This document shows positions 688 to 26,379 of a stretch of 36,559 nucleotides of DNA, piece after piece. This stretch comes from Phycisphaerae bacterium. Its GTDB lineage: Bacteria > Planctomycetota > Phycisphaerae > Sedimentisphaerales > SM23-30. The stretch is taken from the NCBI GenBank assembly GCA_016342495.1, contig JAEIOG010000047.1, positions 1 to 36,559 on the forward strand. Reading direction: 5' to 3'. The stretch's first letter is position 1. Each line of letters begins with the position of its first letter. The position numbers were made by a program, and so were the translations under genes. The notes under the pieces were generated by a model. It had not been told where the DNA came from. It did no database searches and saw only the letters and a program-made list of their open reading frames with translations.

Positions 688-3600
688 TTATTCGGATTCC
701 ATAATCAGTCTTATTCCTACATTATAAACTTTCTGGACTCTTTGATAAGGTATGCTTTTATCGACGGTTATCCAGCGGGGCAGGTCTCGCCATGAGCCAC
801 CTTTGGCTATCGCGTTGACCTGGTTAGGGCCATCGGCTTTGGTCCATTCGGCGACATTGCCAATCATATCGTAAAGGCCAAAAGCATTTGGCTGATATTT
901 TCCGCCAACGATTTGCACCTGGGCATTGTCATTAACGGAATCTTCCCGCAACATATAATTGAATGTCTGGCGGGCATTGAATTTTTTCATGGTCTGGTCA
1001 GCTAAATTGGCGTATTTGCCGAAATCAGCAGTTACATCACCCCAATAGAAATCAGTGGTTGTGCCAGCCCGGGCGGCAAATTCCCATTGCGACTCGTTTG
1101 GCAGGGAAAACTTTTTACCGGTTTGCTTTGACAGCCATTTGGCGTATTGCTTGGCCTGGTCAAAAGAAACCCTGATTACTGGCAGGTCATCGCCCCTGAC
1201 ATCAATGCCGGGAATGGAGTGATCCTTACCCAGTGTGTCAATATAAGCACTGCTATGATCTGGGTCAAACTGTTTGAATTGAGCATTGGTAATTTCCAAT
1301 GTCGCCATATAAAATCGTCGGTCGATTTTCTTAACTATACGGCCCTGGTCAGAATTAACGATAAACATACCAGTTGGAATCTGAACAAATTCAAGGGGGC
1401 CACCAGGGATATCAACTTTAATTGTCTGAGTTTCAGTTTTAACTTTAGTGGCAAACTTAACGGTTTTTTCAACCATTTCAGTTTCCTTGGGCATAATCGG
1501 CTCGATTTTGGCTAGTTCAATTTTGGCATCATCCAGTGAATAAACATCCGCTTCGTAGTCGCACTGGACATTGGCATAAGAATTCTGCAATTCCAGACGC
1601 AGCTTGCGATATTTCTGGATATTGGCTAACTGATCTTCTCTGGTTTTTCCCGAGCCACTCCAGTTTCTATGCAGATTGTTGGCCCAGTCGCGATGGACAT
1701 CGGTCCAGCTGCCCCAAAACGGTGCATTCATATCTATCCAGGCATATAATTTCTCGGTTTCATCTTTGCTTAACTTGACACCATGATGGCCACGATCAAG
1801 AATATGGATTAAAGGTGAAGTATTAACATAATATTCCATAGGCTGGAGCAAATGATAATCACTTTCGGGGCCCGGGCGGCGAACATAAGGATTTAAGGCA
1901 TTATAACTATGGGTAAACGGGCCACCGGGGGCATCTTTTAAGCCATCATTATAAATTAGAGGCTCCATGGTCAAATCCGCGAAATCGGGTAATGCCTTGC
2001 CATCTGCCAGTTTTTTATCCGTCTGGCTATTATGACAGGCAATGCAATTTTTCTGTAATATCGGTTGAATTTCACGTAAGAAGCTGAAATTCCTTTCCGG
2101 GCCTTGCCAATCTTCGATCTGCGAAGGCCCTTTTTTGTTGGCCATCGGGGTCATACGCGAAGGGACGACCTGGCTGCGGTCTTCATGGCAACCGATACAG
2201 GAAAGCATCTCGCCTGGCATAGCAGTAAACCAGCTTCGCATCAACTGCAAAGAAGCTCCAGTGTGATCCAAAGGCTGAATCGCAATAGGGGTATTGGCCG
2301 GAACCTTGAACATTACCGAGCCATCAGGCTGAACGGGAACAGTACCTAATATTCGCTTGACATCCCAACTGCTTTCACAGCCAACAGCTTCATGGGAACC
2401 GGATTTATAAAATGAATAATGATAAGTAAAAACTCTTAGTTTTTTGACGGTACCTTTGGGGATATTTTTCAGGCCAGGACCGGTATAAATATCAGCTATA
2501 TAAATTGTCGCGTCCTTCTTAGTTAAATCAACCCGGTCAGGCATGATCGGAGGCTTTTCAGTTTTGGTAAAGGGAACAGGCTCATTTAAGGCATAGCCTT
2601 CCTGTTCAGCGATTTTGACAATATTATCATAAATATCGACAAGGTAAATTCCCCAGAGTGAATTCTTGCTTGGCTTGCATGAAACCAGGAAATATTTGCC
2701 CGCCCCATCAGCTTCATTTGTTCCCAATGGAATTGGATTTTGAAACTTAGGATAAAAATTCTGATACAAACGGTCGGCTATTTCAGGGACAACTTCCTTT
2801 TTCCATCCGGGTATCAACTGCAAGGCACCTTTAGCTTCAAAACGCCCTTTACTGACATCAAAAATGCATAAAGGGCCGGGTCTGGAAACATGATGGCCTG
2901 AAACCACACCAATAAACTGGGAGACATTACCCGGTATCGGTTTAGGTGTGCTGATGGTATTGGGCCAATATGAATTACTCCCATAGAAATGATCCTGATT
3001 GGTGCCATCAGGGTTCATTTTCATTACTACACGGGTAAAGAAATGGGGGGTGTCGCTGTATTCCCAGCGAATAAACATAATGCGACCATCAGAAGTAACA
3101 GTTGGTCCCCAATTGGCATCCTGATCAAATGTCAAGCGACGAATTCCACCATTGGTGTCCATCAAATAAGTATTACTCATCTGGACCCGCCCTGCCTCAC
3201 AAGGCAAGCCCTGGATTGGCGCGGTAGAAGTGAATATAATTCTGCCATCAGGTAGATAACAGGAATCAAAACTATTATAAGGTGCACCTTCGGGGGTTAA
3301 TTGTTTGACATATTTACCATTATCATCTATTTCATGTAAATGCCAGTGATCTTCGCTACCGAGACCGGAATACATGATTTTATTGGCATCGAAATCCAGA
3401 TCAATCTCGGCGATATGGCCGCCCATGTCAGGCTTATATAAAGTGCTAAGCACCGGCTGGTCAAAATCAGTCAAAGTTATGATTTCATCATTACCACTTT
3501 TAGGGTTTATTACCTCCAGCGAATAAGCATTCAGGCTTGGCACACAGGTATTAATCACAGTTCGGGCATTATTGCCATAACTACGCTTTACAACTAATAT

Positions 3601-4302
3601 ACTATCAAACTTTTTCAATAGCGGATTAGCTAGCAATGCCGTATGCTGTAGTTCAACTAAGGCATTAACTTTATCATCACTGTCAGGCATCGATTCAATC
3701 TGAATTAACTGGTCAAGATATTTCTGGCCATCAGGGTATTGCTCGCCAAAACGAATAATAAGATCATCAATCGCCCTTTTGATTGCGGCAGGTTCAGGAA
3801 TAATATCAGGTCCTGAAACTGGTGGCTGGTCGGCTATGATGAATTTAACCGTACCGCTATTTCCTTTTTGAACAGCGACAAATGTTTCTAATTTTTTATA
3901 TTTCCCTCTGATGGCATATTCCAGCATAGCCGGGCCATGGGTCCAGAGCCCCTGGTCAAATGTCATATTACCAGACTGCAAAGTATTACCTTGATAATCT
4001 TCATTAATATGTAAAGTATCCCAGCCAACTTTGAGAGATTTAGGCTTTAATGTGGTAAGAGAAACTGTGTTGCCATCCTTGTCGGTTAAAACCGGATGGC
4101 CCCAGAAGCCATGATCCTGGCTATTGCCATCATCAGCGTCGGTTACAATCAGGTAGAGGTTTTTGACCCCGGTGAGGTCGGCAGTAAGTTTTTTCGGGCC
4201 ATCGCTACTGCGGACTACAGGTGAAACAGCTAATTGTTTAGCCAAAAGTCCCTGAGAACTCGCAAAAACCACTAAAATTAAAACCAGCAATCTATACTTC
4301 AA
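688..4302 (-). CDS. exported HzsA-related protein: NPCBM + beta-propeller + two CXXCH + SUMF1-like domain
   Basis: The protein has 1204 residues. Residues 1-21 form a signal peptide. About 22-160 look like an NPCBM carbohydrate-binding domain, with the typical GLWTHGPAMLEYAI-like signature. About 225-700 contain TolB/PD40-type propeller repeats (DGRIIFTS, DGRIMFIRWEY) and the stretch VQPDGSVMFKVPANTPI characteristic of proteins related to the hydrazine synthase alpha subunit. Two haem c sites follow: C702-IG-C705-H706 and C753-IA-C756-H757. Residues about 965-1204 form a SUMF1/formylglycine-generating-enzyme-like domain (LPNESQWEFAARAG, GLYDMIGNVAEW, GGSWRD). This domain has no cysteines, so sulfatase-activating chemistry is unlikely. 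The start is a TTG at 4302, supported by AAGGA seven bases upstream; no ATG fits. Periplasmic redox or polymer-binding work is plausible, but the substrate is unknown. Hydrazine synthesis is not implied: no other anammox gene is in the window. Confidence 0.8.
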   Translation of the reverse strand: MKYRLLVLILVVFASSQGLLAKQLAVSPVVRSSDGPKKLTADLTGVKNLYLIVTDADDGNSQDHGFWGHPVLTDKDGNTVSLTTLKPKSLKVGWDTLHINEDYQGNTLQSGNMTFDQGLWTHGPAMLEYAIRGKYKKLETFVAVQKGNSGTVKFIIADQPPVSGPDIIPEPAAIKRAIDDLIIRFGEQYPDGQKYLDQLIQIESMPDSDDKVNALVELQHTALLANPLLKKFDSILVVKRSYGNNARTVINTCVPSLNAYSLEVINPKSGNDEIITLTDFDQPVLSTLYKPDMGGHIAEIDLDFDANKIMYSGLGSEDHWHLHEIDDNGKYVKQLTPEGAPYNSFDSCYLPDGRIIFTSTAPIQGLPCEAGRVQMSNTYLMDTNGGIRRLTFDQDANWGPTVTSDGRIMFIRWEYSDTPHFFTRVVMKMNPDGTNQDHFYGSNSYWPNTISTPKPIPGNVSQFIGVVSGHHVSRPGPLCIFDVSKGRFEAKGALQLIPGWKKEVVPEIADRLYQNFYPKFQNPIPLGTNEADGAGKYFLVSCKPSKNSLWGIYLVDIYDNIVKIAEQEGYALNEPVPFTKTEKPPIMPDRVDLTKKDATIYIADIYTGPGLKNIPKGTVKKLRVFTYHYSFYKSGSHEAVGCESSWDVKRILGTVPVQPDGSVMFKVPANTPIAIQPLDHTGASLQLMRSWFTAMPGEMLSCIGCHEDRSQVVPSRMTPMANKKGPSQIEDWQGPERNFSFLREIQPILQKNCIACHNSQTDKKLADGKALPDFADLTMEPLIYNDGLKDAPGGPFTHSYNALNPYVRRPGPESDYHLLQPMEYYVNTSPLIHILDRGHHGVKLSKDETEKLYAWIDMNAPFWGSWTDVHRDWANNLHRNWSGSGKTREDQLANIQKYRKLRLELQNSYANVQCDYEADVYSLDDAKIELAKIEPIMPKETEMVEKTVKFATKVKTETQTIKVDIPGGPLEFVQIPTGMFIVNSDQGRIVKKIDRRFYMATLEITNAQFKQFDPDHSSAYIDTLGKDHSIPGIDVRGDDLPVIRVSFDQAKQYAKWLSKQTGKKFSLPNESQWEFAARAGTTTDFYWGDVTADFGKYANLADQTMKKFNARQTFNYMLREDSVNDNAQVQIVGGKYQPNAFGLYDMIGNVAEWTKADGPNQVNAIAKGGSWRDLPRWITVDKSIPYQRVQKVYNVGIRLIMESE

Positions 4303-4454
4303 AATAAGTTCCTTTACATATCGTGCAAAATTTACTATTATTTTCTTATCAGATTTATTATAAACGCAAATATAGTTTTGTAAACAATTCGATAACCATA
4401 TTTATATAAAATATCGCTATCATCTATTAACAATAATGTCCTAATAATAAAAAT
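4303..4454. promoter_or_regulatory. shared divergent promoter region of the two HzsA-related genes
   Basis: This 152-bp AT-rich gap lies between two head-to-head genes and must hold the promoters of both. No convincing -35/-10 pair or operator could be picked out by eye. Confidence 0.45.
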
Positions 4455-7400
4455 ATGGAAACAAAAATGATGATTAAGCCCAAATTCTTAGCTATATTAT
4501 TAGTTTTAATTGTTTTATCCACCGCTGGGGCCCAAACCATTCGCCACCGTTTTTTAGCTAAAGATGAATCTCGCAGTCAACTGCACTATGTCAACCAGCT
4601 GGATCCATCGCAGGACTGGACAATCAAGCTGGAAAAAGGCTGTCGAGATATTCGGCTGCTTGGTAAAGACCGCGTTCTGGTATCTTTTGCCGATGGCTAT
4701 GGCGAATACGACCTGAATAATCAACAACAACTCATCAGAATCAAAAACGAAGAATACCGCAATACTGAAACAGCAACTCGACTAGACAATGGTAATACCA
4801 TTTTGGGAGCCAACCGGGATGGCATTACATTTTTCGAGCTGGACCCTGCAGGGGAATTTATCAGAAAAGTAAATTTCCCAAATCTCAACACCATACGTCT
4901 TATGCGACTTTCCCCTGAAGGCAATTTCATGTTCGGGGCTAATACCGACCATGTCATCGAAGCTAACTGGCAAGGGGAAATTTTAGTTGACTTTACCGTC
5001 GAAGGTGCCAAACATATTTACTGGGTCAAAAAATTGGAGCAGGATCGCTATCGAATTTCTACCGGCTATGGAGCAACAATCGAAGATATCACTACCAAAG
5101 ATAAAAAACTGAAAAGAAAAGGGAATCCAAAAAAATATAACTTTTTCTCACGCCCCTTTGAGCTGGATAATGACAATATCGTCGTTTCACACTGGACCGG
5201 ACATGGCTATGATGACAGCGTTAAAGGCCCGCAAATTCTGGAATTTGATTCTAAAGGAAAAGTCGTTTGGCAATGGCATGACCCAAAACGGGCCGGGACA
5301 ATTCATGGGGTGATTGTCCTTGACCAATATGATAGCAACGCCGACCGCATCCTGCGGGCACAGCTCAGGGATTTCGATACTATTAAAACCCATATAGAAA
5401 AATATCATCCATCCCATTGGGCTGAATACGAAAAAGTTGCGAGTGAAGCTCTGCGTAAGGACGCGATTATCTTAGAATCCGATACAAACCCGGTCGATGT
5501 TATTTTGCGGCGCACCGAAGCTTTAAAAAACTACCTTAAACTTACAAAATATGATAATGACCTTCAAGCCCTTAAAGAGCTTAATACCGCAGAGTTAAAC
5601 GAAACCGAGCAGCAAAGCCTGTTTGTCAAAATTTCAAATCTGCGTCGTAAAATTGCTTTTTCCAACCCTTTGCTGGACTTTGATTCACTGCTATTTATCA
5701 AACGTAACCAGATGGCACGCGGTGAATCGCATATGGTCGACCAGTATATGGGCATGAACCAAAGCCGGGGTGGCGGGGTATATCGTCTGGATAATATTTT
5801 TTCCGGTGATCCAGGGGTAACTGACCTGCTGGCAAACAATCCGGTTCAGCAAGGCCGACTAAAAGGTAAAAATCTGGACTTTAATTCAGGGGCTTTTATT
5901 TCTCTTGATCTGGACTATGATGCCAACAAAATACTCTTTGCCTTCACAGAAAACAACTGGGAACTGGCCAATGACCCGGCAAACTGGATAAATCAGCCCT
6001 GGACAATGCAGCAGGCGGCCCGGTATAACAAACATTATTGCTGGGATGAACAATCTTCTTTCCATATTTTCAGTGCCGATGCCGATGGCAAAAATCTCAA
6101 ACAGCTAACTGATGGGCAATGGGACGATTTTGACCCATTCTTTTTGCCAAATGAGAGGATTGGGTTTATATCTTCCAGAGCTGGTGGCAATCAGCGTTGC
6201 GGCGGGCGATTCCTACCTACCTACACCCTACATGCCATGCAAAACAATGGCGATGACATAATTCAACTTAGCTGGCATGATACCAATGAATGGCATCCCA
6301 GCATCGATAACAATGGAATGATTATCTACTCAAGATGGGACTATGTCGACCGGGATTCTGACATTGCTCATCATTTGTGGTATTGCTACCCTGATGGGCG
6401 GGACCCACGAAGCATGCATGGCAACTATCCAGATAATCGATCAATCCGCCCATGGATGGAATTACACAATCGTGCTATTCCAGAATCGCATAAATGTATC
6501 GGTGTAGCTACCCCTCATCATGGTGAATCCTATGGTTCTTTAGTTTTGATTGACCAGAGTATCCCTGATGACAGGGCTATGAGCCAACTTAAAAGAATTA
6601 CACCGATGTCACCTTTTCCTGAATCGGAAATTTCTCCCGGTAAATCGTGGCGCACTAATGAATGGAAATCATTGGGCAATGCCCAAACCAATTGGCCCTA
6701 TAGCACTCCATGGCCACTGAGTGAAGATTTTTATCTCTGCGTTTACGCACCGGGCGCGAAAAAACACGGTAGCCAAAATGAGCAAAAACAAAATGATAAC
6801 TATGGCATCTATCTGGTTGATAGTTTCGGCAATCGTGAACTAATTTATGAAGACCCAAAAATATCATGTTTGGATCCGATACCATTTAAACCTAGAAAAC
6901 GCCCGCCGGTTATTCCCACAATGACTATTCAAGCCAAAGCGGATCAATTGGGCGGAGAAGATCTTTCTACCGGCACTATCACAGTCATGAATGTCTACGA
7001 AGCGGAAATCCCGATTCCCAAAGATATAAAAATTAAGGAAATGCGAATTATCAATGTTTTTCCGAAACCTACTCATGAAATTAATAATCCTCGAATAGGA
7101 CATGCCGACCAGTCTCTGGCTCGTGGGGTTTTTGGCACCGTTCCAGTCGAAGCTGATGGCAGCGTTTATTTCAAATGCCCAACCGGCGCAGGAATATATT
7201 TCCAGTTGCTCGATGAAAATGGATTAATGGTTCAGAATATGCGATCTGATACGTATTTGCATCCGGGAGAAAACCTTACGTGTATTGGCTGTCATGAAAA
7301 TAAAGGCAATGCCCCTAAATCAAAATCACTACCAGTGGCGATGAAACGCCAGCCTTCTATTATTAAACCTGAGGCGAGCGGTTCATATCCGCTGACTTTT

Positions 7401-7823
7401 CCAAGGCTTGTTCAGCCGGTTCTGGATAAACATTGCATGTCATGCCATGAACAAAATAATCCAAAAAAATCCTTGCGTGGCGACAAATTCGGCAAGAATG
7501 GCTGGTCTGAAGCTATGCTGACACTTTCGCCATACGCCTGGGGCAAACATGGCGGCAATGGGGCCATCCGCAAAAATAATGGGAGCTATTCTATACCCAT
7601 GCAGGAAGGTGCAAGAGTCTCAAAACTCTACAAACACCTTAGCAATGGGCACAAAAATGTCAAACTTTCAGCCGAAGAAATGCGCCGTATAACCCTGTGG
7701 CTAGACGCCAACAGCAACTTCTATGGCGCATACAAACAAATCGAACTCCAGGCCCAGGGCCAAATTGCCAAACCTCTGGAAGGCCTGCCCGAATGGACTG
7801 ATTTTGACACCCTCAAAAAATAA
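4455..7823 (+). CDS. exported HzsA-related protein with an extra N-terminal beta-propeller-like region and two CXXCH motifs
   Basis: The protein has 1122 residues and begins with a signal peptide (hydrophobic run about residues 9-24, ending AGA-Q). Residues about 30-290 look like a PQQ/arylsulfotransferase-like propeller (repeated phrases such as LDNGNTILGAN and LSPEGNFMFGAN). About 395-900 resemble the middle of HzsA-related proteins, with PD40-like blades and GTVPVEADGSVYFKCP. Haem c sites are C943-IG-C946-H947 and C994-MS-C997-H998. It shares the core order with the divergent neighbour (residues 388-400 here, NPLLDFDSLLFIKR, correspond to NPLLKKFDSILVVKR there) but has no NPCBM and no SUMF1-like end. 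The second Met (4467) is an alternative start; neither has an obvious ribosome-binding site. The electron donor, acceptor and substrate are unknown. Confidence 0.78.
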   Translation: METKMMIKPKFLAILLVLIVLSTAGAQTIRHRFLAKDESRSQLHYVNQLDPSQDWTIKLEKGCRDIRLLGKDRVLVSFADGYGEYDLNNQQQLIRIKNEEYRNTETATRLDNGNTILGANRDGITFFELDPAGEFIRKVNFPNLNTIRLMRLSPEGNFMFGANTDHVIEANWQGEILVDFTVEGAKHIYWVKKLEQDRYRISTGYGATIEDITTKDKKLKRKGNPKKYNFFSRPFELDNDNIVVSHWTGHGYDDSVKGPQILEFDSKGKVVWQWHDPKRAGTIHGVIVLDQYDSNADRILRAQLRDFDTIKTHIEKYHPSHWAEYEKVASEALRKDAIILESDTNPVDVILRRTEALKNYLKLTKYDNDLQALKELNTAELNETEQQSLFVKISNLRRKIAFSNPLLDFDSLLFIKRNQMARGESHMVDQYMGMNQSRGGGVYRLDNIFSGDPGVTDLLANNPVQQGRLKGKNLDFNSGAFISLDLDYDANKILFAFTENNWELANDPANWINQPWTMQQAARYNKHYCWDEQSSFHIFSADADGKNLKQLTDGQWDDFDPFFLPNERIGFISSRAGGNQRCGGRFLPTYTLHAMQNNGDDIIQLSWHDTNEWHPSIDNNGMIIYSRWDYVDRDSDIAHHLWYCYPDGRDPRSMHGNYPDNRSIRPWMELHNRAIPESHKCIGVATPHHGESYGSLVLIDQSIPDDRAMSQLKRITPMSPFPESEISPGKSWRTNEWKSLGNAQTNWPYSTPWPLSEDFYLCVYAPGAKKHGSQNEQKQNDNYGIYLVDSFGNRELIYEDPKISCLDPIPFKPRKRPPVIPTMTIQAKADQLGGEDLSTGTITVMNVYEAEIPIPKDIKIKEMRIINVFPKPTHEINNPRIGHADQSLARGVFGTVPVEADGSVYFKCPTGAGIYFQLLDENGLMVQNMRSDTYLHPGENLTCIGCHENKGNAPKSKSLPVAMKRQPSIIKPEASGSYPLTFPRLVQPVLDKHCMSCHEQNNPKKSLRGDKFGKNGWSEAMLTLSPYAWGKHGGNGAIRKNNGSYSIPMQEGARVSKLYKHLSNGHKNVKLSAEEMRRITLWLDANSNFYGAYKQIELQAQGQIAKPLEGLPEWTDFDTLKK

Positions 7824-13033: not shown

Positions 13034-15001
13034 ATGAAAATCAAGTTTACAATTGCTATTTTGTCGATTCTGTTCCTGATGCAGATACCGGTTATGGGCC
13101 AGAATTCCCGTATTATCTCGCCCGATGGCCAGTTGGCTATCAATATTGCCTATGAAAACAGCACCCTTTCCTATGGCCTGACGATTGACGGAAAGGAAAT
13201 AATCAAATGCACCCCCATCTCCATTACTATCGATGACAAAGAATACCCCGGCAAGACAACAATCAAGAATGTCACCTGCAAAAGCATCGACAATGAGATT
13301 ATCCCGACGATACCAACAATCACCTCTAAAATAGATGAATCCTGCAGTGAAGCCCTGGTGCAATTTGATGGCCCGGTGGCATTGCGAATCCGAGCCTATA
13401 ATGATGGCGTCGCTTTTCGCTGGGAAAGCAAAATCGATAAACCTCAGGTAATTATCAACAGCGAACAGTTATCTTTTAATTTCGCTCAGGATTATAATAT
13501 TTATTACCCGGTACCCAACGGCCAGGGTTTTTTCTCACATCAGGAAAATATGTTCGAGCACATCAAAATCTCTGAAACAGCCACATTAAAAGCTGGCTGT
13601 ACTCCGGCACTGGTCGACATCGGTAATGAACGCTATATTCTCATGACCGATGTGAACGTAGAAGAATATCCTGGGCTTTGGCTTAAAGGTTCCGGGACGG
13701 CAAGTATCAATGCGGTATTTCCCCATTATCCTGCGGAAACAAAACTTCAATCCGATAGAAATATGACGGTAAACAAATATAGCGACTTTCTAGCTAAAAC
13801 TAATGGCACCCGCACTTATCCATGGCGTACTTTTGTTATTACCGATGCGGCGGGACTCCTGGAATCTACCATGCTATATACGCTGGCAAACCCATGCCAA
13901 CTGAAAGATACTTCATGGATAAAACCTGGTAAAGTTTCCTGGGACTGGTGGAATGCCTGGAATATTACCGATGTGGATTTCAAAGCTGGTATTAATCAGA
14001 AAACCTATAAAAACTATATTGACTTTGCCGCTGCCAACAAACTTCAATATATCATTCTCGATGAAGGTTGGAGCGTTAGAGGGCCAGAGAATCTGCTTAA
14101 AGTCGCCAGCGATCTCGATATCTCCGGGCTGGTAGAATATGGTAAAGCCAAAAATATTGGCGTTATTCTGTGGATGACCTCGGCTGCTCTGGAATACAAC
14201 TTCGATAAAGCTTTCGAACAGTTTGCCAAATGGGGTATCAAGGGACTTAAGGTAGATTTCATGCAGCGTGATGACCAGTTAATGATGGACTTCTGTGCAA
14301 AAGTCGCTAAAGAAGCGGCCAAAGGCCATCTGCTTGTCGATTTCCATGGTGGTTCAAAACCTACCGGACTGCAGCGAACATGGCCTAACGTCATAGCCCA
14401 TGAATCAGTGCTAGGTCTGGAACAGAGCAAATGGAGTAGAAAAGCTTCACCAGACTATGCGGTCCTGCTACCATTTATCCGGATGGCCGTTGGCCCGATG
14501 GACTATACTCCCGGAGCAATGGATAACTACACCCAATCGAATTTTAAGATACAAGGACGCAATCCCGGCAGCCTTGGAACCCGATGTCATCAGTTGGCTA
14601 TGTATGTAACTTTCCTAAGCCCACTGCAAATGTTGGCCGACACCCCGACAAAATATCGCAAGAACCCTGAATGCATGCCATTCCTGCAGGAAGTACCCAC
14701 TACCTGGGATGAAACTGTGGTATTAAAAGCAGAAGTTGGCAAAGAGATAGCCATCGCCCGACGCAATGGAAATAGATGGTTTATTGGTGCAATGACTAAT
14801 TGGAGCCCGCGCGATTTATCTGTCAAGCTGGACTTCCTGACCCAAGGCAACTATACCTTGAGATACTGGGCCGATGGACCCAAGGCCGCCGAAGAGGCAA
14901 CCGATACCTCAATCGGAAAATCCAATGTTACTGCAGGTTCAGAACTAAAAATCAAACTGGCCCCCGGTGGCGGTTATGCTGCGATTATTGAACCGAAATA
15001 A
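13034..15001 (+). CDS. exported GH97 glycosidase, probably retaining type (alpha-galactosidase-like)
   Basis: The 655-residue protein has a signal peptide (residues 1-22, ending VMGQ). An N-terminal beta-sandwich follows (SPDGQLAINIAYENSTLSYGL, LRIRAYNDGVAFRW), then a TIM barrel with VSWDWWNAW and IILDEGWS. Residues about 560-655 are a C-terminal all-beta domain. The barrel motif GLKVDFMQRDDQ places D408 where retaining GH97 enzymes carry the nucleophile; inverting SusB-type enzymes lack Asp there. E457 in AHESVLG is the likely acid/base. By analogy with retaining GH97 members it would release alpha-linked galactose, but the substrate is not proven. TGGAG sits upstream of the ATG. It probably acts in the periplasm or on the cell surface. 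Confidence 0.9.
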   Translation: MKIKFTIAILSILFLMQIPVMGQNSRIISPDGQLAINIAYENSTLSYGLTIDGKEIIKCTPISITIDDKEYPGKTTIKNVTCKSIDNEIIPTIPTITSKIDESCSEALVQFDGPVALRIRAYNDGVAFRWESKIDKPQVIINSEQLSFNFAQDYNIYYPVPNGQGFFSHQENMFEHIKISETATLKAGCTPALVDIGNERYILMTDVNVEEYPGLWLKGSGTASINAVFPHYPAETKLQSDRNMTVNKYSDFLAKTNGTRTYPWRTFVITDAAGLLESTMLYTLANPCQLKDTSWIKPGKVSWDWWNAWNITDVDFKAGINQKTYKNYIDFAAANKLQYIILDEGWSVRGPENLLKVASDLDISGLVEYGKAKNIGVILWMTSAALEYNFDKAFEQFAKWGIKGLKVDFMQRDDQLMMDFCAKVAKEAAKGHLLVDFHGGSKPTGLQRTWPNVIAHESVLGLEQSKWSRKASPDYAVLLPFIRMAVGPMDYTPGAMDNYTQSNFKIQGRNPGSLGTRCHQLAMYVTFLSPLQMLADTPTKYRKNPECMPFLQEVPTTWDETVVLKAEVGKEIAIARRNGNRWFIGAMTNWSPRDLSVKLDFLTQGNYTLRYWADGPKAAEEATDTSIGKSNVTAGSELKIKLAPGGGYAAIIEPK

Positions 15002-16386: not shown

Positions 16387-17313
16387 ATGACAAAACGAAG
16401 AGCTTTTACATTAATAGAATTGCTGGTGGTCATTTCCATCATTGCATTGCTGGTTTCGATCCTGATGCCAGCGTTGTCAAAGGCACGCCTGACGGCTAAG
16501 ATGACAGTCTGCAAATCCAATCAACGCCAACTTGTCATGGGCCTGAACCTCTATGCCAGCGAAAACAGTGATAGACTGCCAGAATCACCCAGCAGGCGTT
16601 TGGGAAGAATTGGTGACTATCATCGCCCTTATGAATTAGCCTGGTTTGAAAATACCATGGGCTTTATTTATGAAAATTTTAGTTCCGCCAACGCTCCCCA
16701 GCAGATTCCCAATGCTGCAGGGCTGACTCTGGGTAAATATCTGCCCGAAGTTGGAGTGTACAACTGCACCCTGGCCCCGATAGATAATAATGATCCCTGG
16801 CCGCCCAGAGGTTCAAAATATCCCCCGGCTACCAATCCCGATGGCTCCACCTTGCAATATGGTAAAGCATACCGGGACGCCAACTATTCATCTTTACATT
16901 CAACCTATACTTTGCTGTGGAACTATCAGGGTTACAATCAAAAAGTTTCGCGTAATATCCCACAGAATTGGAACTGGTTCGATTTTGAAGGGCCCAAGAA
17001 TACAGCCAGCAAAAACAAACTCGTTGTACAGGACTCATTTTTTTACCTTAACACACACCCAAATGTCGTTTGGCCCGAAACTTATAGCTGGTATTCAAGC
17101 CATCCATATGATAATAGCTCAAAAAATACACCTTATTTTACCAGCAAGGCCAATGAACCATCGCCTACCGAAGATGACATAGACCGCCCAGTAGTAAATC
17201 TGAATGCTGGTTATATCGATGGCAGCGTCAGACAATTTGACACCGATGGAAAAAATACGGTTAAATGCAGGAATTGGGGCGCTATCGGCTATTTAACAAG
17301 AGAATTTAAATAA
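16387..17313 (+). CDS. prepilin-type pseudopilin-like exported protein, paralogue 1
   Basis: The 308-residue protein starts MTKRRAFTLIELLVVISIIAL. This is a type IV prepilin signal: a basic leader, cleavage expected before F7 (after A6), the essential E at +5, and a hydrophobic helix ending LSKAR. The rest is a globular domain with few features: VCKSNQRQLVMGLNLYASE follows the helix, and AGYIDGSVRQFDTDG near the end corresponds to the H-x9-DG region of DUF1559-like proteins, with the histidine replaced by proline (RP-x9-DG). Paralogue 2 is similar over its whole length. Such proteins occur in very large numbers in Phycisphaerae and Lentisphaerae, and their role is not established. Export by a type II/IV pilus machinery is expected; no such machinery genes are in the window. 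Confidence 0.85.
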   Translation: MTKRRAFTLIELLVVISIIALLVSILMPALSKARLTAKMTVCKSNQRQLVMGLNLYASENSDRLPESPSRRLGRIGDYHRPYELAWFENTMGFIYENFSSANAPQQIPNAAGLTLGKYLPEVGVYNCTLAPIDNNDPWPPRGSKYPPATNPDGSTLQYGKAYRDANYSSLHSTYTLLWNYQGYNQKVSRNIPQNWNWFDFEGPKNTASKNKLVVQDSFFYLNTHPNVVWPETYSWYSSHPYDNSSKNTPYFTSKANEPSPTEDDIDRPVVNLNAGYIDGSVRQFDTDGKNTVKCRNWGAIGYLTREFK

Positions 17314-17429
17314 CGATTTGCTCAGTTTTTATGGTTTTCTTATTAAATAAACCTCAAAGTCGCAGAAAAACTATGAAACTTGTCCTATTGAGCATGCAAA
17401 CAAAAAAATATTAATTTTCACCACTTTTT

Positions 17430-17471
17430 GAGTACAAAAATAATCTTTTTCTGTGATTAATCAATAAGAAG
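17430..17471 (+). promoter_or_regulatory. upstream shared element, copy 2
   Basis: It repeats the block before paralogue 1: GAGTACAAAAATA, three bases, TTTTTCT, a variable part containing GATTA, then TAAGAAG. It ends 62 bases before the ATG of paralogue 2. Flanking sequence is not conserved, which suggests selection on the block or recent duplication. Confidence 0.5.
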
Positions 17472-17533
17472 CCTATAGTTTTGGGCAGGTTTTACACTAC
17501 AGCTTTAAAAAAGCTAATATTTTGGAGTCTATT

Positions 17534-18463
17534 ATGATGAAAAAAAGAGGTTTTACTTTAATTGAATTGCTGGTGGTTATTTCAATCATCGCTTTACTGG
17601 TATCAATCCTGATGCCCGCCCTTTCAAAAGCCCGCTATTCCGCAAAACTTACGGTTTGCAAATCTAATCAGCGTCAACTTCTAATGGGGCTGAATTTATT
17701 CGCCAGCGAACATGATGACAAACTGCCGGTATCTCCCAGTATGGTTTCTGATAGCGGCTATCATCGACCTTATGAATTATCATGGAACGGCAATAATTGG
17801 GGAGTTAGAACAACCCCAATAGCAACGGCAGCTGGTACGACTCTGGGGACATACCTTCCAGAAGTTGGGGTATTTAACTGCACGCTGGCACCTATTGATA
17901 AAAACAGCGAATGGCCTCCACAAGGCTCAAAATTTGCACCAGCAATTGACCCTGATACTGGCGCAACACTTAAATATGGCGAATCATACAAAAAAGCTAA
18001 TTATACCCTGTTGCATTCTTCATACACTCTCTTGTGGAACTACCAAGGTTATAACTTTGAAAAATCTGCAGCTGTAAACCAAAACCTCAAATTTACTAAT
18101 AAAAATAAGGGAGAAGATTTTGTCGCACCAACATCAACTGCTTCCAAAGACAAACTAGCCGTTCAGGACTCACTATTTTGGTTACCTGAGGGTTACAGCA
18201 ATTTCGTTTGGGATTATTATGGATATATCAGCTCTCATCCATTTAAGGGCGCCGCAAAGAAAGCTCCTTATTTTGTTAGAGATGGAGCCTTACCGAGTAA
18301 TTCAGCTCAAATTACTGACGTCGAAGTTGCCGAACGCCCCGATGCCCAGCTAAATGCCGGATATATCGATGGAAGTGTAAGACAATTCTCTTCCGATCCC
18401 GAGAACATGTATAAACACCAAAATTATGGCGCGTTTGGTTTCATTACCAGAGAACATAAATAA
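17534..18463 (+). CDS. prepilin-type pseudopilin-like exported protein, paralogue 2
   Basis: The 309-residue protein starts MMKKRGFTLIELLVVISIIAL, a classical prepilin signal with G/F cleavage. The body parallels paralogue 1: KSNQRQLLMGLNLFASEHDD, TLGTYLPEVGVFNCTLAPIDKN, LLWNYQGYN, and LNAGYIDGSVRQFSSDPE, again with Pro in place of the His of H-x9-DG. The start at 17534 is supported by GGAG at 17524-17527; a TTG at 17522 is in frame but would include that site. The ATG at 17537 is equally possible. A rho-independent terminator follows 20 bases after the stop. Confidence 0.85.
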   Translation: MMKKRGFTLIELLVVISIIALLVSILMPALSKARYSAKLTVCKSNQRQLLMGLNLFASEHDDKLPVSPSMVSDSGYHRPYELSWNGNNWGVRTTPIATAAGTTLGTYLPEVGVFNCTLAPIDKNSEWPPQGSKFAPAIDPDTGATLKYGESYKKANYTLLHSSYTLLWNYQGYNFEKSAAVNQNLKFTNKNKGEDFVAPTSTASKDKLAVQDSLFWLPEGYSNFVWDYYGYISSHPFKGAAKKAPYFVRDGALPSNSAQITDVEVAERPDAQLNAGYIDGSVRQFSSDPENMYKHQNYGAFGFITREHK

Positions 18464-18483
18464 TAATAAAACACTATAACCTT

Positions 18484-18513
18484 AAAGCCGGGGCATTTGC
18501 TTCGGCTTTTTTT
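18484..18513 (+). terminator. terminator after pseudopilin paralogue 2
   Basis: AAAGCCG pairs with CGGCTTT around a 12-base loop and is followed by a T run (TTTTTTT in total). It is a typical rho-independent terminator. Confidence 0.8.
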
Positions 18514-18571
18514 ATAAAAATATATTTTTCCGGTTCTTTTTTGACTCCTAAAATAATTACCTTATGAATAC

Positions 18572-18597
18572 TCAGGCTATTTTAAGCATCAGCCTGA
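18572..18597 (+). promoter_or_regulatory. inverted repeat before pseudopilin 3
   Basis: TCAGGCT (18572-18578) and AGCCTGA (18591-18597) are perfect inverted repeats with a 12-base spacer, 38 bases before the start of the third pseudopilin gene. It may be an operator or a hairpin in the 5' leader. Confidence 0.35.
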
Positions 18598-18634
18598 AAA
18601 ATATAGTGTATATCATAATTTTATGGAGATTTTT

Positions 18635-19414
18635 ATGCGTAAAAGAACTGCTTTCACCCTTATTGAGCTACTAGTGGTAATATCAATTATTGCTCTACTG
18701 GTGTCAATACTGATGCCTGCACTTTCCAAAGCCCGAAAAACCGCTCAAGGGGCGGCCTGTCTTTCAAATTTGCGGCAATGGGGTATTTTTTATCAGCAAT
18801 ATTGCAATGATTATAATGATAAATTTATCGATGCCTATGACTCTTTTAATAGTGCCGGCAATAGATGGTATTACACATTATCAAAATACTATGACAACCC
18901 TGAAATCAGGCTTTGCCCATCAGCAACTCAGCTGGGAAAACGTGATTGGGGGTCTGTAGGGAAATATGGTGAAAAAGACAAAGCCTGGGCTTTTACCGGT
19001 GACGGACAAACCAAAGACAATAATGGTAGCTATTCATTGAATCACTGGGTACAAAACCCCATTAAATTGCCTGGAAACTGGGGGAATTTCAAAAATCATT
19101 TCTGGCGAAGTAATACAGTCAAAAATGGCACTGAAATCCCAATTTTTACCGATGGTATATGGATGGGGCTAAGCCCCTTTGAAACGGACAATGCCCCTGC
19201 CACCGATACTGAACTTGCGCTGGCTGGTTGGGTTGATAGCTTAAAACGTGTCTGTCTGGACCGACATAGCATGAAAATCCAGGCTGTCTATATTGATGGC
19301 TCGGCCAACAAAGTCCCACTGAAAAAAATATGGGAATTGCGTTGGCATAAAGGATGGTCAAGACAAACCCAGCCACCAAATGCCTGGCCAGCCTGGCTCC
19401 AAAACGCCAATTAA
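18635..19414 (+). CDS. prepilin-type pseudopilin-like exported protein with H-x9-DG motif, paralogue 3
   Basis: The 259-residue protein starts MRKRTAFTLIELLVVISIIAL, with cleavage expected between A and F. After the conserved helix the sequence differs from its two neighbours: ACLSNLRQWGIFYQQYCNDYNDKFIDAYD, a short RLCPSAT segment, and DRHSMKIQAVYIDGS, an exact H-x9-DG motif near the end. The ATG at 18635 has GGAGAT at 18625-18630; the in-frame ATG at 18623 would contain the ribosome-binding site and would lengthen the leader. It belongs to the same broad family but is an older relative rather than a recent duplicate. A bidirectional terminator follows. Confidence 0.85.
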   Translation: MRKRTAFTLIELLVVISIIALLVSILMPALSKARKTAQGAACLSNLRQWGIFYQQYCNDYNDKFIDAYDSFNSAGNRWYYTLSKYYDNPEIRLCPSATQLGKRDWGSVGKYGEKDKAWAFTGDGQTKDNNGSYSLNHWVQNPIKLPGNWGNFKNHFWRSNTVKNGTEIPIFTDGIWMGLSPFETDNAPATDTELALAGWVDSLKRVCLDRHSMKIQAVYIDGSANKVPLKKIWELRWHKGWSRQTQPPNAWPAWLQNAN

Positions 19415-26040: not shown

Positions 26041-26379
26041 GGGCGTTTTAAGCCTGAAATTGGCGATTTGAAAGCTGGTATTGACGATTTCAAGTTTAGT
26101 ATTGGCAATTTTAAGTCAGGTATTGGCGATTTGAAGCTTAGTATTGGTAATATCAAGTCAGGTATTGACGATTTCAAGCTTGGTATTGGCAATTTTAAGT
26201 CAGGTATTGGGCGTTTCAAGCTTGGTATTGGTAATTTCAAGCTTGATATTGGCAATTCCAAGTCAGGTATTGACGATTTGAAGCCTGATATTGACGATTT
26301 GAAGCCTGATATTGACGATTTCAAGTCTGATATTGGCGATTTGAAGGGTCATTTGCTGAATTTTCGGGGAGTTTTTTAG
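26041..26379 (+). repeat. 21-bp tandem repeat (minisatellite), about 15 units
   Basis: Fifteen 21-bp units run from 26041 to 26355, with consensus near GGCGATTTCAAGTCTGGTAT plus T, each divergent at a few positions. A short non-repeat tail leads to TAG at 26377-26379. Units ending in ATT stay in register, and the frame is open from 26014. If read it would give a heptapeptide repeat (for example GNFKSGI, DDLKPDI). There is no ATG and no ribosome-binding site; the only candidate start is a TTG at 26068. The minus strand is also open across it. It is most likely a non-coding minisatellite behind obg. The rest of 26380-26591 is AT-rich and without a gene. Confidence 0.85.

Follow-up and report, generated by a model that had tools for sequence, protein, structure and literature searches.

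Hydrazine synthase is, to our knowledge, unique among known enzymes, and where it came from is an open question. Proteins that resemble its alpha subunit, HzsA, outside the bacteria of anaerobic ammonium oxidation (anammox) have been on record for some years (PMC10732223, 2023; PMC12758564, 2025): they are devoid of the hydrazine-synthase residues, and their genes often lie beside a betagamma gene. An association of alpha with betagamma was proposed from adjacent genes, and two clusters were noted for Anaerohalosphaera lusitana (PMC12758564). This article is concerned with two further alpha genes, found on the 36,559 nucleotides of contig JAEIOG010000047.1 (GenBank assembly GCA_016342495.1, positions 1 to 36,559 of the forward strand) from a Phycisphaerae bacterium of the planctomycete lineage Sedimentisphaerales SM23-30; this whole stretch is called the window. 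P0001 (688..4302, minus strand, 1204 amino acids, TTG start) and P0002 (4455..7823, plus strand, 1122 amino acids, ATG start) are two large exported proteins, divergently transcribed from a gap of 152 bp (4303..4454). Judged by profile matches and structural models, both are members of the non-anammox part of the HzsA/HZS_alpha family. The reading preferred here, to which we give a probability of roughly 0.42, is that they belong to a set of 13 exported dihaem c-type oxidoreductases encoded by their genome, in which a pocket-facing haem I would be catalytic and fused modules would direct the copies to carbohydrate-linked targets.

Fold and Domain Architecture

A first-pass annotation, made from the window's sequence alone, had taken the pair for relatives of the hydrazine synthase alpha subunit, and both profile and structure agree. 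The middle domain of the family (PF18582, HZS_alpha, curated cut-off 26.6 bits) scores 110.5 bits in P0001 (residues 617-707; 2182..2454) and 74 bits in P0002 (residues 860-948; 7032..7298); here and throughout, coordinates within P0001 are on the minus strand and those within P0002 on the plus strand. Modelling of both structures, which the annotation had proposed, was done with AlphaFold from alignments of 26 and 31 sequences. The mean predicted local distance difference test score (pLDDT) is 80.6 for P0001 and 70.1 for P0002, whose core is good and whose N-terminal propeller is poor. For each model the best match among solved structures is Kuenenia HzsA (5c2v_D), with Z 30.7 over 559 residues, a root-mean-square deviation (rmsd) of 2.9 and 20% identity for P0001, and Z 29.1 over 568 residues, rmsd 3.0 and 22% identity for P0002. 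TolB propellers follow for both (Z 22-26) in a match list that is not exhaustive, so that families absent from it may still match.

The coordinates and strands given in the annotation, including the 152-bp gap, are exact, and Pfam, alignment and models concur with its description of two big exported proteins, each with an HzsA-like propeller and two CXXCH sites. Open reading frames (ORFs) were called mechanically from the longest start: an AAGGA-like ribosome site accompanies the TTG start of P0001, and P0002 may begin at M5 or M6 instead. A Sec-type signal peptide is recognizable by eye at both N-termini. In P0001 it is followed by an NPCBM module, the HzsA-like propeller, the HZS_alpha domain, a cytochrome domain with two CXXCH sites and a C-terminal FGE-sulfatase/PvdO-like domain; in P0002, by an extra propeller similar to PDB 3no2 and the HzsA-like core with its two CXXCH sites. 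Correct as far as it went, the annotation was incomplete on two counts, as it had missed the last domain of P0001 and the second propeller of P0002.

The NPCBM/NEW2 module (residues 79-157; 3832..4068), found by Pfam on P0001 only of the two, scores 86.8 bits against a cut-off of 23.9, its best stretch covering positions 2-82 of a profile of 137. The extra propeller of P0002 (residues 45-285; 4587..5309) is matched to 3no2 at E 3.1e-9, its fold not being settled by the model, in which residues 99-292 have pLDDT below 50. The C-terminal domain of P0001 (residues 963-1200; 703..1416) is an FGE-sulfatase domain by profile (100.5 bits, cut-off 23.3), and its modelled fold is that of PvdO (5hha, Z 23.3), with further matches to PorK and TvpA. 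A true formylglycine-generating enzyme binds copper by a cysteine pair. P0001 contains no cysteine after residue 914, and that activity is excluded for its cysteine-free C-terminal domain for this reason.

Haem Sites and a Pocket Motif

On the combined evidence of sequence and model, the two proteins have an HzsA-like fold, two predicted haem c sites, a conserved histidine at the place of the distal ligand of haem II, and a motif particular to the family. By alignment, the putative haem I site is CIGCH in both (residues 702-706 of P0001, 2185..2199; residues 943-947 of P0002, 7281..7295), while that of haem II is CIACH in P0001 (residues 753-757; 2032..2046) and CMSCH in P0002 (residues 994-998; 7434..7448). 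The distal ligand of haem II is predicted at H839-H840 of P0001 (1783..1788) and at H1066 of P0002 (7650..7652); in the column of HzsA His772, P0001 has His840 and P0002 has Lys1067, with His1066 one position before.

Conservation was counted in two sets. The first holds 51 non-HzsA relatives found without any motif pattern, in an alignment of 62 of 65 family rows from which three fragments had been dropped. The second holds 163 relatives and 10 HzsA rows, the 173 retained from 202 when rows shorter than 600 residues and near-copies were left out; it depends on an ORF picker that keeps the longest of overlapping frames, and part of it was gathered with a pattern containing RWDY. Motif counts in this larger set are biased by that selection, which leaves the 51 rows as the fair count for the motif.

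Haem I is complete in 51 of the 51 and haem II in 50; in the larger set the figures are 163 of 163 and 161 of 163. Loss of the haem ligands in most homologues was what the annotation had named as evidence against its reading, and this did not occur. Of the 163, 157 combine an intact haem II with a histidine at either of two adjoining positions, one of them the His772 place, and in 150 the histidine stands at the column just before that place. Both rows without haem II are also without the distal histidine: one of them is a gap at both places, and the other is the closest relative of P0002, L119:7872-10451 from Pontiella sulfatireligans, which keeps haem I and the pocket described below. Four rows have haem II but no distal histidine in the alignment. 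On the whole the comparison supports the ligand assignment and points to haem I as the site that cannot be dispensed with. All 13 copies of the window's own genome keep both haem sites and the distal histidine. A very divergent alpha-like protein, L059:9000-12569 (G044), has one CXXCH and a broken pocket motif; it lies near HzsA in the tree, probably through long-branch attraction.

Beyond the haem sites, what is strongly conserved in the family is one cysteine, an RWxYxD run and a pair of histidines. These are placed by alignment at Cys368 (3199..3201), residues 412-417 (3052..3069) and H470-H471 (2890..2895) in P0001, and at Cys582 (6198..6200), RWDYVD of residues 627-632 (6333..6350) and H688-H689 (6516..6521) in P0002. 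Among the 51 rows the cysteine is kept in 50, R in 51, W in 48, Y in 50, D in 49, and the two histidines in 40 and 45; the exact combination CRWYDHH occurs in 128 of the 163, and in the 13 own-genome copies C, R, W, Y, D and the second H are kept without exception. The ten HzsA rows read FSVAGYM at the same places in six cases and differ from it by one or two residues in the other four. In the model of P0002, the cysteine, the RWxYxD run (its R being the last residue of a strand) and the histidine pair fall between strands 569-573/591-595, 623-627/640-644 and 681-686/694-699, respectively. The motif would thus occupy the equivalent hairpin loop in each of three consecutive blades and so lie on a single propeller face, which would be the one that meets haem I.

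Would such residues be needed if the haems only carried electrons? The proteins might be non-catalytic, either glycan-binding, haem-bearing electron conduits or surface scaffolds, with the propeller as an interaction platform. TolB-like propellers as the next best structural matches and the fusion of binding modules are in keeping with this, as is the likeness of the P0001 tail to PorK and TvpA, neither of which is known to us as an enzyme. Pontiella sulfatireligans, with 14 copies, is described as growing by fermentation and as encoding multiple c-type cytochromes (PMC7356697). However, near-invariant C, R, W, Y, D and H on one propeller face across deep paralogues exceed what a scaffold needs, and HzsA itself is an enzyme; a purely non-catalytic role is accordingly rated as doubtful, though to be taken seriously.

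Distance from Hydrazine Synthase

That nothing in the window suggests anammox had already been remarked in the annotation, and the comparison with hydrazine synthase proper agrees. Against NF052339, the equivalog profile of the hydrazine synthase alpha subunit (cut-off 800 bits), P0001 reaches 47.3 bits and P0002 40.9. A protein over the cut-off is carried by 17 of 294 genomes of the phylum, full-length copies scoring at least 1518 bits, and the best score listed outside these 17 anammox genomes is 60. These genome scans scored the best few candidates per genome: 3 for NF052339, 4 for betagamma, 4 or 5 for the distances between P0001-type and P0002-type genes, and 16 for HZS_alpha copies. No HzsA appeared among the 3 of 43 candidates scored in the window's genome, and anammox is rejected on these scans and on the scores of the two proteins. 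A gene annotated "HZS_alpha" is therefore no evidence of anammox.

The residues tell the same story. Tyr591, which follows the CXXCH histidine by four residues, is a haem-ligand residue of HzsA (PMC12607021; PMC12758564), the proximal one of haem alphaI; its position holds Ser710 in P0001 and Gly951 in P0002, and tyrosine stands there in 10 of 10 HzsA rows but in only 1 of 163 relatives. The exception is an own-genome copy located beside a betagamma gene, L010:9313-11940 (G000:C108), which reads CYGCHEPKY and keeps the CRWYDHH pocket. The zinc site residue Cys303, which is not universal in anammox (PMC12758564), is replaced by Asn443 in P0001 and Tyr658 in P0002; the homologues described in that paper are likewise without Tyr591 and Cys303. 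The two haem motifs are spaced by 51 residues in P0001 and P0002 versus 102 in HzsA, the inter-haem insert being missing. No betagamma-like (HzsBC) gene is present among the ORFs of the window, and the five of the genome sit on other contigs.

An action on nitrogen compounds like that of hydrazine synthase, with handling of nitric oxide, hydroxylamine or hydrazine, might still be imagined from the HzsA fold, the two haems and the betagamma-like genes elsewhere in the genome. With Tyr591, Cys303 and the insert all missing, and with profile scores so far below those of full-length HzsA, it is very unlikely.

Is the Divergent Pair Conserved?

The annotation had regarded the divergent arrangement as conserved, and this did not survive comparison. 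A family tree including true HzsA, as it had recommended, was built from 102 rows; it is a quick tree, rooted by choice on HzsA, with long branches flagged for L059_9000, L150_2743 and L011_1889. HzsA forms one side of a branch with a support of 100 by the SH-like approximate likelihood ratio test (SH-aLRT). P0001 belongs to a clade of FGE-tailed alpha proteins (19 rows, SH-aLRT 100), and P0002 to a different large clade (48 rows, SH-aLRT 99), where its sister (SH-aLRT 100) is a gene from another phylum, carried by Pontiella sulfatireligans. The two proteins are thus, as far as this tree goes, deep paralogues, and a recent tandem duplication is ruled out by their different clades.

Gene order was surveyed by a six-frame count in 80 loci with a P0002-type gene. 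They are the top-ranking 80 among at least 583, and one of the two patterns that retrieved them contains RWDY. Eighteen of these loci hold a further alpha gene, 23 such genes in all: 14 of other types, five P0002-type and four P0001-type. Three of the four P0001-type neighbours are on the same strand (L119, L122 and L159, the last counted by its best match, since the locus ends before its FGE tail is complete), and one is divergent (L162, with 476 bases between the longest ORFs). Of the 80 loci, then, a single one has the two types adjacent and divergent. Four one-contig genomes give distances between the nearest scored hits to the two types of about 281 kb (G385), 42 kb (G393), 171 kb (G413) and 1159 kb (G423); the hits are nearer together in G044 and G407 (4.5 to 8.4 kb) and in G412 (9 kb). 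A conserved divergent pair is rejected on these counts and on the depth of the paralogy, neighbours that are not conserved as a pair being just what the annotation had named as evidence against it.

Its own view was of a single two-protein system, in which P0001 and P0002 would be dedicated to each other and co-regulated from the common gap. The layout itself speaks for it, as do promoter-like matches in both directions within the gap (11 of 12 positions on the minus strand and 10 of 12 on the plus strand), although these are a weak signal, four being found against 1.9 +/- 1.4 in shuffled sequence. So does the number of P0001-type neighbours, four in 80 loci with one of them divergent, where random placement of five such genes over 5.4 Mb of genome predicts 0.9 (P 0.012). 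But P0001-type genes make up only 4 of the 23 further members while accounting for 5 of the 13 own-genome copies, and four such neighbours are no more than general family clustering explains. The types are distant in the four one-contig genomes and come from separate deep clades, and the P0001-type copies that neighbour P0002-type genes in L048, L119 and L162 do not group as sisters of P0001. A dedicated two-protein system is therefore improbable, and P0001 and P0002 would rather be independent members of the family.

At one locus of Pontiella sulfatireligans (L119:7872-18431), three alpha genes of different subclades stand together, each closest to a scattered copy of the window's genome (P0002, L010 and L019). 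These groupings suggest exchange between phyla.

Copy Number and Possible Betagamma Partners

With 13 HZS_alpha genes in the window's genome, the pair is far from alone. The domain occurs in 56 of the 294 genomes of the phylum. Seventeen of these are the anammox genomes, which have one or two copies each; of the remaining 39, ten hold at least five alpha copies, running up to the 16 that were scored per genome. Elsewhere, copies number 14 in Pontiella sulfatireligans, 11 in Persicirhabdus sediminis, nine in Verrucomicrobiaceae bacterium E54 and six in Planctomycetales bacterium ZRK34.

The betagamma-like protein consists of a 7-bladed propeller and a MauG/CCP domain. There are five such genes for the 13 alpha genes of the window's genome, four of them adjoining an alpha gene. 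At E 1e-70, a betagamma match is found in 24 of the 39 non-anammox genomes with alpha against 9 of 238 without it (Fisher p 2e-17, in a test that ignores kinship and genome size), and all ten genomes with at least five alpha genes have one. Alpha and betagamma go together at genome level, though alpha genes outnumber betagamma genes. In alignment A9, the betagamma-like proteins (among them L010:11816-13693) have an invariant extra cysteine, C424, seven residues before the first CXXCH, in 13 of 13.

Fused Modules, Neighbouring Genes and Likely Role

Six of the 13 own copies carry a fused carbohydrate-linked module: NPCBM on P0001, L009 and L016, F5/8C on L018, PA14 on L019, and an RpiB-like isomerase on L011. 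In this last case (L011:1889-5257, G000:C43), the alpha protein is joined in frame to a C-terminal ribose/galactose isomerase (LacAB_rpiB, 117 bits), and no second case was met among the proteins examined. On P0002-type proteins of other genomes, counted for 53 of 84 (L125, apparently identical to L124, was omitted), F5/8C is found on ten and NPCBM on three. Two own copies, L013 and L014, are each part of a cassette that also encodes a LacI or DeoR regulator, a DeoC/LacD-type aldolase, an FGGY kinase and an alcohol dehydrogenase; the genes of the L013 cassette recur in G014 (L062), where another alpha type and a betagamma gene accompany them.

Neighbours were compared near and far from family genes in two rounds, reported by family and not by member. 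The first covered 154 of 159 near proteins (three from the window and two from L100 were left out) and 85 of 102 far ones (16 from the window and one other left out), and the second 105 proteins from each side, out of 138 near and 131 far; as the ORF picker mentioned above was used, the neighbour counts may miss genes, in GC-rich loci above all. In a further comparison, of 298 near with 348 far neighbours, the only families enriched near alpha genes are PQQ/BamB-like propellers (7 versus 0, p 0.004) and GFO/IDH/MocA oxidoreductases (4 versus 0, p 0.045), with no correction for multiple testing. A sulfatase/polysaccharide-lyase operon, suggested by an early count of 4 of 77 near proteins, was discarded when near equalled far (3 of 105 versus 3 of 105).

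Regulators of the IclR, DeoR or IclR/AraC type adjoin a member in L009, L011, L014 and L016, and in L013 one of the LacI type is found at a distance of about 5 kb, making 5 of 12 own-genome loci. Since regulators of these kinds (IclR, DeoR, LacI, AraC-type) are frequent neighbours of the family, might the proteins be haem-based sensors that report a ligand to them? Domain searches of all 13 own copies brought up no signalling domain. The regulators, moreover, are located in the cytoplasm, and control of catabolic operons is the simpler task to assume for them; by ORF list and Pfam neither window gene has such a neighbour. A sensor function is the most improbable of the roles considered.

The preferred reading is that of catalytic dihaem oxidoreductases. 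Haem I, ordinarily ligated by the histidine of its own CXXCH, would face the C/RWxYxD/HH pocket and form the catalytic site. Haem II, with its two histidines, would hand electrons to periplasmic cytochromes or to a few shared MauG/propeller (betagamma-like) partners. The variable modules (NPCBM, extra propeller, F5/8C, PA14, FGE-like) would give each copy a carbohydrate-linked target of its own, in which case the multiplication of genes would reflect the variety of substrates. That the proteins are exported haem oxidoreductases with carbohydrate-linked targets is held with moderate confidence. The first-pass annotation had linked them to polysaccharide through the NPCBM module, a proposal that the fused modules favour weakly.

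Several facts weigh against this reading, over and above the limits of the Fisher test. Carbohydrate-binding modules are common on exported planctomycete proteins, which makes the fused modules weak evidence. Sulfatases are not enriched, at 10 of 298 near against 8 of 348 far (p 0.48), in a comparison whose neighbour clusters were named from one member each (L166 for the BamB/PQQ type, L018 for the GFO/IDH-type dehydrogenase and L009 for the sulfatase), and the neighbouring genes are mixed, with no fixed pathway. A betagamma match at E 1e-70 is missing from 15 of the 39 non-anammox alpha genomes, mostly single-copy ones, and of the own copies nine have no betagamma gene next to them, the window pair included.

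A bolder version supposes a modular two-part redox system ancestral to hydrazine synthase. Many substrate-specific CRWYDHH alpha proteins would share a few MauG/propeller betagamma engines within one periplasm and oxidize glycans or sugar derivatives, the pocket of HzsA having later been rebuilt for nitrogen chemistry. We consider it unlikely.

Three other features of the window may be recorded. A glycoside hydrolase family 97 gene (13034-14998, plus strand) lies 5 kb past P0002, and in L052 a P0002-type gene has a similar one next to it. Three tandem proteins (16387-19414, plus strand) have a common FTLIELLVVISIIALL...ILMPALSKAR start, as in pseudopilins. A short ORF (26068-26379, plus strand) opens with degenerate repeats (DDFKFSIGNFKSGIGDLKLSIGN...) and is perhaps no gene.

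Comparison with Known Systems

How, then, do P0001 and P0002 stand beside what has been described? Three features were not found in the parts consulted of PMC12758564: copy numbers above the two clusters of Anaerohalosphaera lusitana, fused modules, and a motif missing from HzsA. Literature searches, whose scope did not extend to supplements such as Fig. S7 of that paper, likewise brought up no account of large HzsA-like copy numbers, modular fusions or a pocket absent from HzsA. The FGE-like domain of P0001 is akin to those of the PvdO/PorK/TvpA type, by its FGE-sulfatase match and its PvdO-like fold. The MauG/CCP and 7-bladed propeller (betagamma-like) proteins are separate proteins and are absent from the window.

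Kuenenia HzsA (PDB 5c2v) shares with the pair the propeller, the middle domain, the C-terminal cytochrome domain and the two CXXCH sites, at 20-22% identity over about 560 residues and an rmsd of about 3 Å. The pair differs from it in being without Tyr591, Cys303, the inter-haem insert and an adjoining HzsBC, in bearing extra modules at the ends, and in having the C/RWxYxD/HH motif. Closer at hand are clades I-IV of Hagglund et al. (2025; PMC12758564) and the hzs-like genes of PMC10732223, which belong to the same HZS_alpha family and, in the parts cited, also show a canonical haem I and the loss of Tyr591. The alpha proteins of clades I-IV stand beside betagamma, a description that fits four own-genome copies but not P0001 and P0002. 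His772 is reported absent in clade I (PMC12758564), whereas the window proteins have a histidine within one residue of it, P0001 at the place itself and P0002 just before. The family was therefore already known outside anammox, and the copy numbers, the fusions and the pocket may be the new part. A multicopy family with a pocket absent from hydrazine synthase offers concrete residues, and concrete organisms, in which to seek the ancestral activity.

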